Source: Methanosarcina sp. MSH10X1 (GTDB lineage Archaea > Halobacteriota > Methanosarcinia > Methanosarcinales > Methanosarcinaceae). From it: DNA of 64,000 nucleotides. A program made the translations under genes and the position numbers. The stretch covers positions 124,001-188,000 of the forward strand of contig NZ_SCHL01000001.1 in the NCBI RefSeq assembly GCF_004099695.1, written 5' to 3'. Each line of letters starts with the position of its first letter. The stretch's first letter is position 1. A model generated the notes under the pieces. That model did no database searches. It saw only the letters and a list, made by a program, of their open reading frames with translations, and was not told the DNA's origin. Shown piece by piece: positions 8,202-28,643 of this stretch.

Positions 8202-9296
8202 GTGCCGGATACGTCGGATATGTTAATTTTCTGGGCCGTAGTTATGATGCGCTTCTTTGTACCGCTCGCTATTCCCAGATATCCTCTTCCAGCGGTAATA
8301 GCTGCTCTGATCCTTGATATGGTAGACCAGACGATTTTTCAGCTGTTCACGAGTTTGCCCCTTGAAGGCTACCAGAGCTATGATAAGGCTCTTGACAATT
8401 ACTATCTGGCAATTACCTATCTTTCAACCATGCGGAACTGGTCAAATCTCTTCGCCTTTAAAATAAGCCGTTTCCTTTTCTATTACAGGTTAGTCGGTGC
8501 AGCCCTTTTCGAGCTAACGCACCTGCGAGAGCTGTTGTTTATCTTCCCGAACACTTTTGAATATTTCTTTATCTTCTATGAGGCAGTTCGCCTGAAATGG
8601 AATCCGATGGTGCTTACAAAAAGCAAACTGATCACTACCACGGCACTCATCTGGATCTTCATCAAACTGCCTCAGGAATACTGGATTCACATCGCTCAGC
8701 TGGACACGACCGACTGGATCCGGGAAAACCCCATGAACGCATTGATTCTTATCGGATGGGTTTTATTCCTTCTTGGCATGGCATGGTGGCTGCTGCGAGA
8801 TCTCCCCCCCATGAGATCCGGGTTTTCAGTTGCAGCCGATCCTATCTCTGGAGCCCGGAAAGAAAGGCACGGACAGGGAATCGAAACCAATCTCCAGGTG
8901 GCGGATTCTTCGGAGCGTTTTTTCAATAATGCACTGTTTGAGAAGATAGTACTTGTTTCCCTGTTAAGCATAATCTTTGCCCAGATTCTTCCCGGAGTAA
9001 GGTCGACTAATCTTCAGCTGGCACTTGGTATGGCTATTCTCATAATAATAAATACGGCATTGAGCCACTGGCTTGCAAGGCGCGGAACTCACTGGAAGTC
9101 TATTATCCAGGAATTTGTGATAATGTCTCTGGTGAACCTCGGCATAATCCTTCTATTCGATTTCCTGCTGCCCAGATACGATGGTTCGATCAACCTTTTT
9201 AACACGCTCTTCTTCGTCCTCCTGCTGACCCTGAACGTAACGCTCTATGACAGGTATCGGACAGTGCATATCAGGAACCATAAAGGAAGCAATTGA
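8202..9296 (+). CDS. unnamed integral membrane protein, first of a tandem pair
   Basis: The product has 364 residues and starts with GTG at 8202 behind AGGGGGGAG. I do not recognise a named family. There are about eight hydrophobic helices. Striking motifs shared with the next gene are ALILDMVDQTIFQ, PLEGYQSYDKALDNYYL, YLSTMRNWSN, FIKLPQEYWIHIAQLDTTDW and LLRDLPPMR. Conserved acidic/aromatic motifs in the first 130 residues point to a specific ligand or partner rather than generic transport. The two paralogues differ mainly in the cytoplasmic linker at 200-240. Confidence 0.75.
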   Translation: MPDTSDMLIFWAVVMMRFFVPLAIPRYPLPAVIAALILDMVDQTIFQLFTSLPLEGYQSYDKALDNYYLAITYLSTMRNWSNLFAFKISRFLFYYRLVGAALFELTHLRELLFIFPNTFEYFFIFYEAVRLKWNPMVLTKSKLITTTALIWIFIKLPQEYWIHIAQLDTTDWIRENPMNALILIGWVLFLLGMAWWLLRDLPPMRSGFSVAADPISGARKERHGQGIETNLQVADSSERFFNNALFEKIVLVSLLSIIFAQILPGVRSTNLQLALGMAILIIINTALSHWLARRGTHWKSIIQEFVIMSLVNLGIILLFDFLLPRYDGSINLFNTLFFVLLLTLNVTLYDRYRTVHIRNHKGSN

Positions 9297-9461: not shown

Positions 9462-10583
9462 ATGCCGGAGACATCGGATCTGTTCATTTTCTGGGCTGTG
9501 GTCACGGCTCGATTTCTGATACCGCTTACCATTCCCGGTTACCCTCTTCCGGGCATTATACTTTCCTTAGTCCTTGATATGGTAGACCAGACTTTATTTC
9601 AAGAGTTCACAAACCTGCCCCTGGAAGGTTACCAGGACTATGATAAGGCTCTTGATATTTATTACCTGGCAATTACCTATCTCTCAACCCTGAGAAACTG
9701 GTCAAACTTCTTTGCCTTTGAAGCAGGCCGCTTCCTCTTTTACTTCAGGCTGATAGGCGTAGCCATTTTCGAGATAACACACCTGCGCCTGCTATTGCTT
9801 ATTTTTCCCAATGTCTTCGAATACTTCTTCATTTTCTACGAGCTTGTCCGCCTGAAATGGGACCCGAAGGTGCTTACGAAAGAGAAATTGATTACTACTG
9901 TGGCTTTTATCTGGGTCTTTATTAAACTGCCGCAGGAATACTGGCTCCATATTGCCCGGATGGATACCACAGACTGGGTGAGAGCCAATCCTTCAAATGT
10001 AACAATCCTTATTGGCTGGGCTGCTCTTCTTATCTTCCTGGGCTGGTGGCTTTTGAGGGACCTGCCCCCCATGAGGCCCGGTTTAATTGTTGCAGCCAGT
10101 TACAGGCACTTTCCTTTTTATAGCCTGCGGGCGAAGAAAATAAGGGATAATTATACGAGCCTGAGGTTTTTTGACGATTTTCTCCACTACGAACTGTTCG
10201 AGAAGATTGTGCTTATTTCCCTGCTGAGCATAATCTTTGCACAGATCCTTCCCGAGGTCCGGGCAAGCAGCCTTCAGGTTGCAATCGGGATAACGGTTCT
10301 TATCATAATAAACACCGAGCTGAGCCAGTGGTTTGCCAGGCGAGGAACCCGCTGGAAATCAATAATCCGGGAATTCATAGTAATGGCTGCTGTAAACTTC
10401 GGGATAGTGCTCGCATATGATTTCCTGATAGCCAGGTTCGCGGGTTCGATCAGCCTTCCAGATACTTTATTCTTCATCCTGCTTCTTACCCTCAATGTCA
10501 TTCTTTATGACAGGTACAGGCGGTGGCAGATCTGGAATCAGGCAGAGACAGTTGTTTTTGCAGGGCTGGGAGTGAAAAAATAA
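9462..10583 (+). CDS. unnamed integral membrane protein, second of a tandem pair
   Basis: The product has 373 residues and parallels the preceding gene over its whole length (for example LVLDMVDQTLFQ, PLEGYQDYDKALDIYYL, YLSTLRNWSN, LPQEYWLHIARMDTTDW), so the pair arose by tandem duplication. The ATG at 9462 lies 165 bp after the first stop. A purine block GTGAAGGGAG sits upstream. The linker between membrane blocks (~205-235) is unrelated to that of its twin. No function can be assigned. Confidence 0.75.
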   Translation: MPETSDLFIFWAVVTARFLIPLTIPGYPLPGIILSLVLDMVDQTLFQEFTNLPLEGYQDYDKALDIYYLAITYLSTLRNWSNFFAFEAGRFLFYFRLIGVAIFEITHLRLLLLIFPNVFEYFFIFYELVRLKWDPKVLTKEKLITTVAFIWVFIKLPQEYWLHIARMDTTDWVRANPSNVTILIGWAALLIFLGWWLLRDLPPMRPGLIVAASYRHFPFYSLRAKKIRDNYTSLRFFDDFLHYELFEKIVLISLLSIIFAQILPEVRASSLQVAIGITVLIIINTELSQWFARRGTRWKSIIREFIVMAAVNFGIVLAYDFLIARFAGSISLPDTLFFILLLTLNVILYDRYRRWQIWNQAETVVFAGLGVKK

Positions 10584-11914
10584 GAGATCCTGGAGCCAGG
10601 GGGCTTTTTAATATGGCTTTAATGTTTATACGGGACAAGATAGAAGCTTATATGAAACATATAAAATTAGCAGAATGAGTAAGATAAACTCAATTTCTTT
10701 ATTTTTAAATATTGAATGGAAAAAATAGCGTAATAACCTGGAATTTTCCCTATAATAAGCTGTATATAAATATCCTAACCGATTCGATCTGGAAACTTTA
10801 TAATTGATTTCTGAATAACTTCTTTTATTATGAGGAGTTTAATTTTTATAATTTCCAAAAATATCAGTCTTTACAGACTGTTCTCCTCTGCTTATTAGAA
10901 TTCAGATCTGCATTATAAGTACACCTGTAACATAATTCAAATCTTCAAAGGCTGAAAAAGTAAAATTTTCCTGCGGAATAAGGCGCAGTATTGACAATTT
11001 TAAACAGATGAAAAAAATTAAATAGGATAAAGGGATTATATAAGCTTATGGAAACACAGTTCAGAAAAGATTTGATTTCAGCTCTTGGTTGGCTTGCTCT
11101 CTGGATTATCATCCGAACTTATGTAAACGCCTGTGCACCTTAACTTCGGGGCTCTGAAAAGTTTTTGAATTATCGAAGGCTGTATTAAAGAGGCTGTATT
11201 AAAGAATTTTTCGATCTGGTCTTATTATACTCGATACAACATTAAAAAGAATAATGAGTATAGGAAATAAATTCCTGCGAAGAGTTGATGTTGAAGTATT
11301 TTCTGCTGCTTGTTTACTGGAAAAATTGGATAGGAAAAATCGGGTAAAATAAATTGCAGCAGAGCGCCCTATTTAGAGAAGAGTAATGTTGGACTTGAAA
11401 TTTTCTATGTCAATCAATTTTTTGCTTGAAAGCAATTTTTGATATAATTTATTTAATATAATTTATGCTATTACTATGTGCTAGAGTTGGGGAACAGGGC
11501 TGGGGTATCATCAAAAAGAATTTCCCGGGTTGCTGATCCTTCTTCGAATTACTTGCTTGGGGGAGCATAAGTTCGAAGATACTGTGTTGGGGGACACAGT
11601 AGATACAGCGCCTCCGGGATTCTTCTGTATTAGTTTACTGGACTTAATTAAAAAGCAAAAGCAAGAAAATATTCCAGGAAGCAAATTTCTCTTCTTTCTT
11701 TATATTTCCCATCAAATTACCTGATTATACTTTTGACTCCACATGCTGGCTCATTCATATTGAATCATGCATTTATCGAAGTTAGTGGACAGACTCTGGA
11801 TCGTTGTTTCCATTATTCTATGTATTATGTGTCTGGAATAAGCTATCAGTAGATAAATCATTTAACGAGCAGATAAGATCTACAGATGGGATGTGCTCAG
11901 TCGTATCCTCGATA
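10584..11914. other. gene-poor AT-rich region
   Basis: 1.3 kb without a convincing gene. The only small frame with some protein character is 11048-11143 (plus, 31 codons, one hydrophobic segment ALGWLALWIII). It overlaps a TATA-like TTATATAA at 11036-11043 that would start transcription downstream of its ATG, so I do not call it. A 64-codon frame at 11530-11724 lacks coding character. Confidence 0.5.
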
Positions 11915-11923
11915 TTTATATAT
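11915..11923 (+). promoter_or_regulatory. TATA box of candidate small RNA
   Basis: TTTATATAT is centred about 26 bp before G11945, the usual archaeal TATA-to-start spacing. G11945 is the first base of an 11-bp closing stem. Confidence 0.5.
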
Positions 11924-11944
11924 GATGAAGTATATTAGAGTCCT

Positions 11945-12040
11945 GGGCATCTGGAAGGTCATTAAAGACTTGTTCTTAACTCTTTTTAATAACCACCCCA
12001 TACCCCCCAACTCCCCAATATCCAGATGCCCAACCCCCAA
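11945..12040 (+). ncRNA. candidate structured small RNA with a C-rich single-stranded segment
   Basis: The predicted transcript opens with GGGCATCTGGA (11945-11955), which pairs perfectly with TCCAGATGCCC (12021-12031). Inside, GGT-C-ATTAAA (from 11957) can pair with TTTAAT-A-ACC (ending near 11994). This leaves an unpaired C-rich strand (about 11995-12016, containing ACCCCCCAACTCCCC) and a second C5 tract after the stem. A TATA box stands at the right distance and there is no open frame. C-rich loops are complementary to the G-rich ribosome binding sites of this genome. Methanosarcina small RNAs that bind ribosome binding sites are known; identity with any of them was not established. Confidence 0.5.
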
Positions 12041-12186
12041 ATATCGTTGACAATTCTTTCTTCAGCCTGTTTTAAAGCCTGAATTCTGACTTATGCTCTC
12101 CCTAATTTTTAAAAAAAGAATTCACTGATTGGAAGTCACAATCATCTACGAACATTAAAAGTACTTGCTGTAAGGATTTTATGCTA

Positions 12187-12300
12187 GAAATTAATACTAT
12201 TGTATTGATAGAGATTAATACTATTGTATTGATAGAAATTAATACTATTATATTGATAGAGATTAATACTATTGTATTGATAGAAATTAATACTATTGTA
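12187..12300 (+). repeat. 24-bp tandem repeat with alternating variants
   Basis: Copies start at 12187, 12211, 12235, 12259 and 12283 (the last is partial, 18 bp). They alternate between GAAATTAATACTATT and GAGATTAATACTATT starts, so the array grew as a 48-bp double unit. It lies ~85 bp upstream of the metalloprotease gene. Confidence 0.9.
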
Positions 12301-15830: not shown

Positions 15831-15890
15831 GACAAACTTTTTTGAAAAAGTTTGCGTTTTCGCTCAAGCCTTTTTTGAAAAGGCTTGCGA
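15831..15890. repeat. dispersed twin-hairpin repeat, single short copy
   Basis: Two inverted repeats in series: AAACTTTTTTGAAAAAGTTT (15834-15853) and CAAGCCTTTTTTGAAAAGGC (from 15865). The same twin-hairpin occurs near 27.7 kb and, inverted, near 58.6 kb. It lies between the AGCS gene and the next operon and could also act as a terminator. Confidence 0.75.
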
Positions 15891-24533: not shown

Positions 24534-27091
24534 ATGAGTTTTGGCTTTCTGTATAAATCCGAGTTGCTGCTCCTGCTTCCTCTGGCGGGCTTCCTGCTTT
24601 TAGGGCTGAGTAAAAAAGCCAGTAAAAAGCATCTGTTCTTCCACGTACTTATCGCATTTCTTCTGATTCTGGCACTCGCAGTTCCATATTCCGCAGAGAT
24701 AGCTTCCCCGAAAACCAATCAATCCAGAATAACCATAATCTCTGACGAGACAGCAAGTATGGAACTACTTCAGAAGGGGATTCCGCAGAATATATCCGGA
24801 AAACTTGGCAGCAAGGTTCCTGTTACGATTACAACCATATCAGGATCGCACACCTCGCTCGGGGATGCTATTATGCAGCAGGCGTCCCCTGAGAATTATG
24901 TGCTTATAGTTTCGGACGGGCAGAGCAACTCGGGTACTTCAATTGAGGATGCGCTTTCCTATAGCTACAGGAATGGTTTCCCTGTAGCTGCACTCATTCC
25001 GCATACGCTCAAAGAAGACCTCAGCGTAGAAATTGAAGGAGAAAATGAGCTCGTAATCGGGAACGAGGCTCCTTTCAGGGTTTATGTTCGAAAATCAACT
25101 GAAAACGAGCTGAAGTACGAACTGAGAGTTACAGTTGACCATAAGCAGGTAATGAGAAAGAAGATTACCCAGACCGGAAGAATAGAAAGTGTCGATTTCA
25201 ACCATACTTTCGATACACTTGGACCGCATACGTTAAAAGCAACCCTTCACCCTGCAAGCATAAACGTTAAAGGCATGGACTATTTCGAGAATAACAACCA
25301 GTACATGAAAAGCGTATATGTGACACCAAAGCCGAAAGTGCTTTTTGTGACAGATGAGCCGGATTCGCCTCTGGCAGCCATACTTTACGAGGTTTATGAA
25401 GTCCATCGTGCATGGTCTCCCGGCTCCCTTGAAGGGATGGATGCAGTCGTAATCGATAATCAGGCTGCATCGACAATTTCAAATTCGGAAGTCGAAGCCC
25501 TGAGAAAGTATCTCATTAATGGCGGCGGCATGGTAGTGGTGGGAGGCAATACTTCTTTTGATTATCCTGCAGAAGGTACCTATAGCACACGCAATTCGAA
25601 ACCCTGCTGCCGGTCACGTCCAGCCCCTCAAACTGGAGAGGCGGCAGGAACATTGTCCTTATGCTTGACGTTTCGCCCAGCACCCTGCAAGATAACAGGG
25701 TCGGAGGGCATGTTCTAGACGACATCCTTTCCAATGCTATTGTCCTGCTTGAGAGCGACCACCTGAAAGACGCAAGAGTAGACGTAATCACGTTTGGGAG
25801 CAAGGGAAAGGATATTACAAACGGGTTCGTGGATATGTCCAAAGAATATAACAGGATATGGCTTGAAGGCGAGATCAGCAAAATTACCCCTTCGGGAGAC
25901 TCGACTTCACTTGAACGTGGTTTGTTAACTGCGCGCAACCTGCTTAGAGGGCAGAACAATAGTGCAGATGCTGAAATAATAATCGTTTCTGACGGCGGGA
26001 TAGGCAGTAAAAGCGAGGGAGATAAAACGTTTGCACAGGCAGTAAATTGCGCAGATTCACTTCGTGAAGAAGGAATAGGCATTCATTTTGTCCATATTCA
26101 TTCTCCAAACACCCAGCGCCAGGTCAATCCCAATGGCAATTACTACGCCTATCTGCTGATGAATAAAATCGGCTTATCGAAAAACTATAACAGGATCGAA
26201 CCCGGACAGCGGATAGATGTCAGTTTTTCCGAGAAATCGGAAGAATCGGAGGGAATTGAAGAAAATTATTCAGGCGGTGCGCTGATAGTCTATGATCCGA
26301 GGCATTTCATTACAAGAGAAATTTCCGAAATCACGTACGATCTTCGGGGCTATAATGAAGCAAGTCCGAAGCCGGAAGCAAACCGTCTCTTAACAACCAG
26401 ACTTGGCAAACCCGTAATCACGGTCTGGAGACTTGGTCTCGGGCGGGTTGCAGCGATTACCACCGATAATGGATGCGGCAATGGGATTGCGTGGGCTCCT
26501 TCCCTGTATACAGGCAACGACAGCCTGGTAATTACAAGAACCCTGAACTGGGCAGTCGCAGAGACCGAAATGTCCGGGAGTATGCAGTTAAAAGTTCCTG
26601 ACCTTAAAGTAAACCAGCCCGGCAGAGTCCTTATTACAACCAGGGATGAGGGAGCTCCTGAACTGTATTTTGATAAAAAGCCTATGGAAATAACTCCTAT
26701 CGGAAACAGGATGTATGAATCATATATCACCCCGGCTACCTTCGGGCTCCATAAAATCTCAGAAAAGCCTGCCGGCGTAAACGAGACTGAGGAATTCATG
26801 CCTGAGACCATCGGTGCTGAAAACATATCCTGGAGACCTGCTTCTGCAAACTGTCCTGACGAATATACCCATATCGGCGAAAACCCCTTATTCCGAACCA
26901 CCCTGCTGGAAAACGGTGGAAAAATCTATACTTCAGCCGATATTTATTCCCGGATAACAACCGACTCAGTGACCCATACCGAAAAACAGGCTGTGACAAA
27001 AGTAATCTATACGAAATATATTCTTGTGCTCGCCTTTCTCATCTACCTGATATATACCGTGTATCATACTTACAACACCCGTATGAAGTAA
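24534..27091 (+). pseudogene. second VWA-domain membrane protein, interrupted by a frameshift
   Basis: Two frames together make one ~850-residue protein. The first (24534 to a stop at 25718) begins with two helices and a weak MIDAS (DETAS) and runs sensibly to VVGGNTSFDYPAEGTY at 25581-25583. The second carries on as HTQFETLLPVTSSPSNW from 25586. It contains an intact MIDAS (LMLDVSPST, 25661 onwards), a VWA domain, a glutamine-amidotransferase-like beta region and a C-terminal helix (LVLAFLIYLIYTVYH). The second frame has a TAG at 25583-25585, so the break lies within a few bases of 25583-25590 and fits loss of one base. No classical slippery heptamer is present. It is a real mutation or a sequence error. 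Confidence 0.85.
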
Positions 27092-27350
27092 TCCGTATTA
27101 CAGGACAATTTCATCTGCCATTGATTTTTCCGGAAACCTTATATTTTCAAATTTTTACGGTTTGGAGCTATTCAATTTCGGAATTATTATTCTAAACCGG
27201 TTTCCATACTTCCTGATAAGGTTTTCATTCCGTTTAGAGTGCAATTCGTGTAATAATATAATTGATAGATCGGTGAAATAAGCATTCAATCAATGAACGA
27301 GGTTAGAGAGTTAGACAAAAAAAGTTGAATGAAATGAGATTAACTCTTAA
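27092..27350. other. intergenic, AT-rich
   Basis: No gene seen after the VWA operon. Transcription of the operon presumably ends here; the only short inverted repeat noticed is GAAACC...GGTTTCC (27132-27211), widely spaced. Confidence 0.4.
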
Positions 27351-27354
27351 AAAT

Positions 27355-27565
27355 TTTATATACAATAAACACATAGTATAACTTGCGTTCTCATCCTTTC
27401 AACACCCCACTAGCAAACAACACCTACTACAGAACATTACTCCACAGTAAAGGGATAGAGAGAAACTCACAACCTATCAATCAAAGTACCTCAATATCTC
27501 TTCCCCAACTTAGAACAGGTGAGTCTCTCAAATACCGTTTAGAACTCCCAGGTTTTCTCGGGTGA
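27355..27565 (+). other. promoter-bearing unit A, no clear product (twin of unit B)
   Basis: TATA box TTTATATA (27355-27362) is followed by ACATAGTATAACTTGCGTTC at 27371-27390. The same layout recurs exactly 700 bp downstream. The expected transcript start, ~27383, falls on TTGCG. A 60-codon frame starts with TTG at 27383 and would be leaderless, but the twin unit has a stop early in that frame, so a noncoding RNA or decayed small gene is at least as likely. Similarity with unit B continues to about 27555 (GTTTAGAACTCCCAG versus GTTCGGAACTTCCAG). Confidence 0.45.
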
Positions 27566-27679
27566 GGGCGCTACCTCATTTTAAATAATTCTAAGAAATA
27601 TCGTGCTCCACATAAGTAAATAATTTACTTATACCACCTGATTTTAAGGAATCTAATTTAATCAACCGTTGACCCGCGA

Positions 27680-27792
27680 CCGTTGCGCCGGTCGATCACG
27701 CTCCGGTTATACCGGTCTAGATAAAGCATGAGTTTTTGATAAAACCTTTTCTCAAAAAGTTTTCGCTCAAGCCTTTTTTGAAAAGGCTTGCG
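27680..27792 (+). repeat. dispersed composite repeat, copy A
   Basis: It starts CCGTTGCGCCGG, continues with a TCACGCTCCGGTTA-type GC-rich part, then GAGTTTTTGATAAAACC, and ends in the twin hairpins (AAGTTTTCGCTCAAGCC to AAGGCTTGCG). Copy B follows directly. Inverted relatives lie at 58.57-58.86 kb. Confidence 0.85.
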
Positions 27793-27798
27793 TTGAAA

Positions 27799-27909
27799 CC
27801 GTTGCGCCGGTTTATCACGCTCCGGTTACACCGGTTTCGATAAAGCATGGTTTTTGATAAAACTTTTTTGAAAAAGTTTTCGCTCAAGCCTTTTTTGAAA
27901 AGGCTTGCG
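27799..27909 (+). repeat. dispersed composite repeat, copy B
   Basis: Same order of modules as copy A, with changes mostly in the GC-rich half (TTTATCACGCTCCGGTTACA). The first hairpin is perfect here (AAACTTTTTTGAAAAAGTTT). Confidence 0.85.
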
Positions 27910-28055
27910 GTCAAGCCATTTAGCAATTCGGGAAGGACAGCATCCTCCTGAGACGGGACTCGGGTAGTTCAATGCTATAAGGTTAAACCAATGGAGAAAA
28001 ATTAGATCTTTATAACAACAGAATATAGTTAAAATAACATTATGTGTTAAAAATA

Positions 28056-28424
28056 TTATATATGGTGCGAACATAGTATAAATTGCGTTCTCATCACAAG
28101 ACCACATAGCAAGACCTATTCCACAAGAAATACTTCAACGCCTACTCCGAAAAATCTACTCTAAAAGCGAAGAGACAAGATAAGAAGCTCGCAACCCGTG
28201 AGTCCAGTACCAAACCTCTTCCTGAACAAGACCTGATAAGTGCCGTTCGGAACTTCCAGAATTTTACAGATGGGAACGCAATCTTTTCTCCAGGCAAAAT
28301 ATTGCTAACAGCCTTCAGTATACAAAAAGATCCTAAAACATCAAAAGGCAATAGAAGTGGAAAAGATCGAAAAAAAATAAGAAAATTGTCAGGACTCAGT
28401 AAAAAAATAGTAAAACAGTATTAA
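28056..28424 (+). other. promoter-bearing unit B, no clear product (twin of unit A)
   Basis: TATA box TTATATAT (28056-28063), then ACATAGTATAAATTGCGTTC at 28071-28090, matching unit A. A frame without ATG is open from 28113 to TAA at ~28424 (about 103 codons, Lys-rich end). It shares frame and scattered residues with unit A (an SST...LP stretch). The two may be homologous decayed genes or paralogous RNAs. I cannot assign a function. Confidence 0.4.
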
Positions 28425-28457
28425 AAAGATGATAAAAGATAGTAAAAAACAGAGTTA

Positions 28458-28643
28458 TTATACGGATATTACCTCACTTTTTTGCCGTTTGAATATCCCG
28501 GTTACTTTGCCATCCTGATCGATATCGTTCCTGATCAAAATAAGTTCCCAACCCTCGTTTCCTATTCTTTCGAGTTCGCTCATCAACTGTGGCATGTTTA
28601 AGCCATCAAGTTTGCGAGAATCATATTCCCATAGATGTATCGT
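28458..28643 (-). CDS. DUF4177-like small protein with apparent ACG start
   Basis: The product has 61 residues if initiated at ACG 28643, six bases behind a very strong GGAGGGG. An in-frame TAA lies immediately upstream of the ACG, so no other start precedes it. The sequence runs IHLWEYDSRKLDGLNMPQL, then a helix, then NEGWELILIRND and GKVTGIFKRQ. This is the usual DUF4177 layout: strand, helix, the NxxGWELV-type signature, strand, FKR end. Internal ATG 28595 would delete the first strand. A TATA-like TTATTTATAG lies ~65 bp upstream. Either ACG is used or the original ATG has mutated. Confidence 0.65.
   Translation of the reverse strand, partial: TIHLWEYDSRKLDGLNMPQLMSELERIGNEGWELILIRNDIDQDGKVTGIFKRQKSEVISV

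Follow-up and report, generated by a model that had tools for sequence, protein, structure and literature searches.

A predicted small-RNA gene and its parts

The window is a 64,000-nt stretch of the genome of Methanosarcina sp. MSH10X1, and at 11944-12033 of its forward strand lies what is very likely a real small-RNA gene. Farther upstream are two adjacent and related ORFs that resemble membrane proteins (8202-9296 and 9462-10583, with 364 and 373 amino acids); the second of these has no Pfam match. The next gene downstream encodes a matrixin-like peptidase (PF00413) and starts about 350 nt past the small RNA. Between the small RNA and the matrixin gene, at 12185-12300, a 24-bp AT-rich unit (TAGAAATTAATACTATTGTATTGA) is repeated in tandem (4.8 copies, 93% matches). 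The features of the locus are as follows:

11833-12075, + strand: duplicated block of about 243 bp; the second copy is at G000:C11, around 266147-266236 (- strand), and is 93% identical (blastn of the two copies)
11915-11923, + strand: TATA box TTTATATAT, seen in the sequence; the octamer begins 29 nt ahead of the first stem base
11944-12033, + strand: predicted body of the small RNA, type A (cmsearch with model R1, 92.2 bits, E = 4.7e-18; alignment and covariation)
11945-11955, + strand: 5' arm of the closing stem P1, GGGCATCTGGA; pairs with 12021-12031, with compensatory changes in relatives
11956-11971, + strand: inner hairpin P2, AGGTC-ATTAAA-GACTT, with arms at 11956-11960 and 11967-11971; covaries in relatives (A-U to C-G; G-C, G-U, and A-U)
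11978-11992, + strand: U-rich segment AACTCTTTTTAATAA, which corresponds to near-invariant columns in alignment A2
11993-12020, + strand: G-free, C-rich single-stranded tract, with the core CCCCCCAACTCCCCAA at 12003-12018 (G = 0.6%)
12021-12031, + strand: 3' arm of the closing stem P1, TCCAGATGCCC; pairs with 11945-11955

An earlier note on this DNA had proposed a new small RNA with a TATA box at the right spacing, a perfect 11-bp terminal stem, a nested hairpin, a free C-rich strand, and no open frame, and had suggested that the C-rich strand masks ribosome binding sites (RBSs) in trans. The description stands: each of these parts is at the positions given above, the C-rich tract is nearly free of G, and no ORF of at least 80 amino acids overlaps the RNA. 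The suggested action on RBSs is not supported (see below). Past the inner hairpin, G makes up just 0.6% of the single-stranded loop of type A, as compared to 21% of the window. The best-supported inner hairpin is the short AGGUC/GACUU, and the U-rich segment is predicted to pair weakly or not at all. This segment is possibly a site for an Sm-like protein.

The spacing of the promoter is nearly fixed. Of 17 type A loci, 16 have a TATA octamer that begins 29-31 nt ahead of the stem; in type B, which is described below, the distance is 29-32 nt at 12 of 12 loci. Transcription is therefore expected to start at the first bases of the stem, which for the window RNA means at 11945 or a few nucleotides from there. 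The 3' end is probably at a T-rich stretch that lies 15-36 nt beyond the predicted body.

Judged from one sequence, the closing stem is weak evidence and is unremarkable: the window contains four perfect inverted repeats with arms of at least 11 nt and spacers of 45-95 nt, as compared to a mean of 0.85 and a maximum of 4 in dinucleotide shuffles. The z score of the minimum free energy was -3.6 for 11915-12040 and -5.4 for 11944-12033. The case for a small RNA rests on conservation.

Copies and conservation of type A

The genome of MSH10X1 contains three copies of type A, which are 87-99% identical. Besides the copy at 11944, one (99% identity) shares its contig at a distance of 130 kb, and the other (87%) lies elsewhere. 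The surroundings of the two close copies are unrelated outside of the shared block of about 243 bp, which implies that the copied unit is the small gene together with its promoter. A 31-bp sequence from the window (about 15856-15886) also recurs exactly, but inverted, near the second copy.

Most other Methanosarcina genomes have the RNA as well. Of 31 genomes, 22 had blastn matches to the window RNA (although in one of these, G025, just the sequence upstream of the RNA matched), and 26 had matches to the covariance model R1. A scan of named genomes yielded 25 matching stretches, mostly from Methanosarcina, with some chance matches in unrelated bacteria; no large complete genome was among them. 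No Rfam covariance model matched type A or type B above its gathering cut-off; the best sub-threshold match for the window RNA had an E value of 9.2. The proposal of a new small RNA is thus supported, with the conservation in other Methanosarcina that the earlier note had asked for as a check.

The closing stem is conserved in these relatives. When type A sequences are aligned, 99.6% of paired cells remain paired, four pairs have changed on both sides (as compared to 1.0 in shuffles), and the covariation score was reached by none of 500 shuffles; the alignment was fitted to the structure, so these values are biased in the structure's favor. When the structure was slid along the alignment, pairing dropped to 50% or less. 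The inner hairpin of type A also covaries.

A wider family with interchangeable stems

Some weak matches to R1 represent a second type, B. When searched for with its own model, type B gave strong matches in most Methanosarcina genomes and was also found in a neighboring genus. A type B member lies 3.4 kb past the end of the window (L089:3390-3480, or G000:C11:191390-191480), ahead of a convergent purE-like gene. Members of types C, D, and E occur in tandem groups, with a spacing of about 1 kb, that adjoin GNAT-like, CMD-like, and aldo/keto-reductase-like genes (these names were assigned by eye, without a profile search). At L135, L136, L137, L143, and L144, three different members (of type C, D, E, or F) follow one another in tandem at intervals of about 1 kb.

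The core of the loop, CCCCCCAMCWCCCCAA, occurs across the genus: at least 51 matches were listed, as compared to 4 for the reversed pattern. The search for the core also revealed type G, whose closing stem (GUGAGCGGG/CCCGCUCAC) is unrelated to the others. A model of type G matched 82 of 112 genomes of Methanosarcinaceae. One version of type G, of 74 nt, is identical in the copies examined from MSH10X1, G001, G010, and G036, which belongs to a different genus; the same score (60.4 bits) was obtained in many further genomes. In G001, loci of types B and G are at 1643045, 2227633, and 4771642. The same loop is surrounded by a third stem (GAGGUGUGUG/CACACACCUC) in G074, a genome that matches Methanolobus psychrophilus. 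Together with GGGCAUCUGR/YCAGAUGCCC, there are at least three unrelated closing stems in this superfamily of C-rich, closed-stem RNAs, which spans genera. MSH10X1 itself has at least eight members; in the sequence examined, there are at least three of type A, one of type B, two that are C/D-like, and three of type G.

All of the stem types enclose a loop of the same design, with a U-rich stretch and then a G-free, C-rich tract (CCCC-ACUCCCC). The number of motif repeats varies, as with the CCCCCAACUAUU units of type G2. Compensatory changes are seen within stem families, such as GUGAGC to GUGAGU in G008 or GUGAGCGGG to UUGCGCGGG in Methanolobus. Covariation within type G is modest (one two-sided pair, which was reached by 41 of 500 shuffles), and the statistics for type B are similarly modest. 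For these two types, the case is therefore made by the replacement of the stem between families and by isolated compensations.

The window RNA probably belongs to a widespread superfamily of RNAs from methanogens, which is apparently undescribed. We did not find the loop sequence in the text of open-access papers, nor did we find any description in the open-access literature of sRNAs that form a family with a constant loop and exchanged stems. Some members of the family may already be known as transcripts, since the comparison with the sRNAs of M. mazei was by description.

The genome G074 offers a potential link to known transcripts. For Methanolobus psychrophilus R15, PMC5378194 reports that nine sRNAs are induced by cold, are highly conserved, and have a "cold box" upstream, and it describes Mpsy_0031 of R15 as a histidine kinase at 26,651. 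G074 encodes a PAS/HisKA/REC histidine kinase at 25041-28643 (- strand; domains by eye), which spans 26,651 and has the same domain cut; hence, G074 matches R15. It contains eight C-rich, closed-stem RNAs (near 69775, 351401, 399491, 561375, 2721965, 2751060, 2838652, and 2877712), several of which have similar upstream sequences. These eight may be among the nine cold-induced sRNAs of R15, a lead suggested by their similar number and character. If they are the same, then this class of RNA would be linked to cold adaptation in methane producers.

Pairing with ribosome binding sites

The RNA might act as an antisense sRNA in trans, with the C-rich tract pairing with the G-rich translation starts of selected mRNAs and blocking ribosomes. 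There is precedent for this in M. mazei, where RBSs are masked by sRNA162, sRNA154, and sRNA41 (PMC3510493 and PMC5867862). The target tests drew on about 577 kb of the RNA's own genome, or roughly one sixth of it, with 247 SD-bearing starts. Duplexes between the C tracts and these RBSs had mean energies of -10.2 to -11.2 kcal/mol, the same as for reversed and shuffled tracts. Pairing is stronger at RBSs than in coding sequence by about 1.3 kcal/mol, which is what the G content of RBSs leads one to expect. Similarly, the length of perfect matches to RBSs did not differ between the type A tract and its reversal: a perfect match of 11 nt (TATTGGGGAGT) occurs at one of the sampled starts, but the reversed tract has an 11-nt match as well. 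GGGGAGT is enriched near starts, but the reversed control TGAGGGG is enriched to the same degree. Genome-wide, the core has exact complements nowhere but on the strand opposite the RNA genes, and near matches to its complement number 14, as compared to 15 for the reversed pattern. Among those listed, starts of ACDS, the target of sRNA41, have duplex energies of roughly -7 to -19 kcal/mol, which is within the range of the sampled starts and shows no special fit.

Because the C-rich tract fits RBSs no better than its reversal or shuffles do, whether by duplex energy, longest perfect match, or motif enrichment, the masking of G-rich RBSs that the earlier note suggested is not supported: these translation starts show no excess complementarity, and the genome-wide search found no near-perfect target. 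Since the tests of starts sampled one species and about one sixth of its genome, a few true targets may have escaped them. We consider antisense action on selected mRNAs to be rather unlikely. More broadly, these findings argue against taking every C-rich sRNA for a mask of RBSs.

A second multi-copy element

A second structured element with multiple copies lies at 11441-11640 (+ strand), some 300 nt ahead of the small RNA. Its predicted fold has an outer stem and two hairpins whose loops contain runs of G (UUGGGGGA), with a z score of -3.1. At least six further copies, with 67-83% identity, are present in about 600 kb of the same genome. Nhmmer found no match in about 850 kb of flanking sequence from other genomes, and the element has no match in Rfam. 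Copies were seen at L198:13055-13300, L204:17895-18150 (- strand), L131:15460-15740, and L203:3620-3870 (- strand). In three cases, the copy is 330-900 nt upstream of a same-strand gene for a MEDS-domain-like sensor (for this domain, one fragment was checked with Pfam, and it was just below the cut-off). A copy also lies 195 nt upstream of a porB-like gene. The second element is possibly a shared leader element.

The C-rich loops might pair with the hairpin loops of this element, so that the two would act as an sRNA and its target leader. GUUGGGGG of the element is complementary to CCCCCAAC of the C-rich core, and several of the copies are upstream of MEDS-domain sensor genes. However, among the sequences searched, the element is present in this genome only, while the C-rich RNA is present across the genus, and the runs of G are held inside tight tetraloops. 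Such a pairing seems improbable.

Standalone genes or leaders

Type A sits in long intergenic stretches: at syntenic loci, the next same-strand ORF of at least 70 amino acids is usually over 1.2 kb downstream. Type B mostly has an ATP-pyrophosphatase-like gene on one side and a purE-like gene, in convergent orientation, on the other. Given these distant or convergent neighbors, types A and B are standalone genes and not mRNA leaders. Types C, D, and E could act in cis, as in several genomes they are roughly 80-400 nt upstream of the GNAT, CMD-like, or aldo/keto reductase genes and on the same strand. Nevertheless, with the neighbors of types A and B arranged as above, and with the next ORF of the window beginning some 350 nt away, we think it very improbable that the RNA is a cis-acting 5' leader or riboswitch for the downstream gene. 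None of the other copies examined is beside a relative of the matrixin-like gene.

Least likely of all is a mobile or DNA-level palindromic element with no function as RNA: the copies are dispersed and have inverted repeats at their termini, but paired bases change in a compensatory manner, promoter spacing is fixed, the single-stranded tract is conserved, type B and part of type A are at orthologous positions across species, and the searches matched the window RNA to no plasmid and a type G pattern to no viral contig.

Proposed mechanism

Few archaeal sRNAs have a known function. The model that we prefer, and to which we give about an even chance, is a standalone, stem-clamped, multi-copy RNA that acts in trans on one conserved partner, probably a protein. 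In the window, transcription would start at a point set by the TATA box, so that the 5' arm of the stem lies at the start of the RNA or close to it. The ends of the RNA would pair over about 11 bp, in a closing stem that could vary freely in sequence while the pairing is kept. The stem would clamp open a loop that comprises the small hairpin, the U-rich stretch, and the G-free, C-rich tract, which should be unable to fold on itself. This tract, which recurs across paralogues, would be the functional part and would bind one conserved partner in trans. The partner would most likely be a C-tract-binding protein, with the RNA serving as a decoy or as part of an RNP, like the CsrB-type sponges. The combination of a changeable stem, a kept loop, the exclusion of G, a repeated motif, and multiple paralogues fits a single-stranded C tract that is shown to one partner.

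It is likely that the RNA acts in trans. As to the partner, we tentatively favor a protein, with somewhat less than even confidence, because one partner would have to serve every paralogue in every genus and the target tests gave no sign of an mRNA; our second choice is antisense action on G-rich mRNAs. Counting against a protein, the functionally studied sRNAs of Methanosarcina act by pairing with mRNAs (PMC3510493 and PMC5867862). We rejected standalone TRAM proteins, the one candidate family of chaperones considered, as the partner because their binding to RNA is described as lacking sequence specificity (PMC5572242). A more speculative proposal, which we regard as doubtful, is that the RNAs form a superfamily of Methanosarcinaceae, with several paralogues in each genome and with complementary but unrelated stems, whose G-free, C-rich loop would titrate or recruit an archaeal C-tract-binding protein, at least in part in response to cold.

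Comparison with known systems

The bacterial RNAs CsrB and RsmY titrate proteins by means of GGA motifs in hairpin loops. As in the window family, a short single-stranded motif is repeated across several paralogous RNAs, but the motif of the window family is C-rich and is not a GGA in a hairpin loop; we intend an analogy only. In Y RNAs, a terminal stem closes a pyrimidine-rich loop, as it does in the window family, and the RNA is bound by the Ro (TROVE) protein. We rejected a Y RNA/Ro RNP: the Ro protein was found in none of the 31 Methanosarcina genomes searched.

Among the sRNAs of M. mazei, sRNA41 (Buddeweg et al. 2018) is intergenic and is said to repress translation by covering RBSs, according to a review (PMC5867862). 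The window RNA is also an intergenic sRNA of Methanosarcina; the RBSs of ACDS that sRNA41 targets have no special fit to the C tracts. The promoter of sRNA154 contains the NrpR operator GGTA-N6-TACC (PMC3177094); GGTA is absent from 11850-11944, unlike in sRNA154. sRNA162 and sRNA171 have 191 nt, with three stem-loops (SL1-SL3), of which SL2 and SL3 are joined by a 39-nt linker (PMC3510493). The window RNA does not fit this description, as its predicted body has about 90 nt and one closing stem, and no closing stem around a C-rich loop is described for them (PMC3510493). They are nevertheless similar in kind: these too are genus-restricted, duplicated sRNAs in which a long single-stranded region does the binding, as we propose for the C-rich tract.
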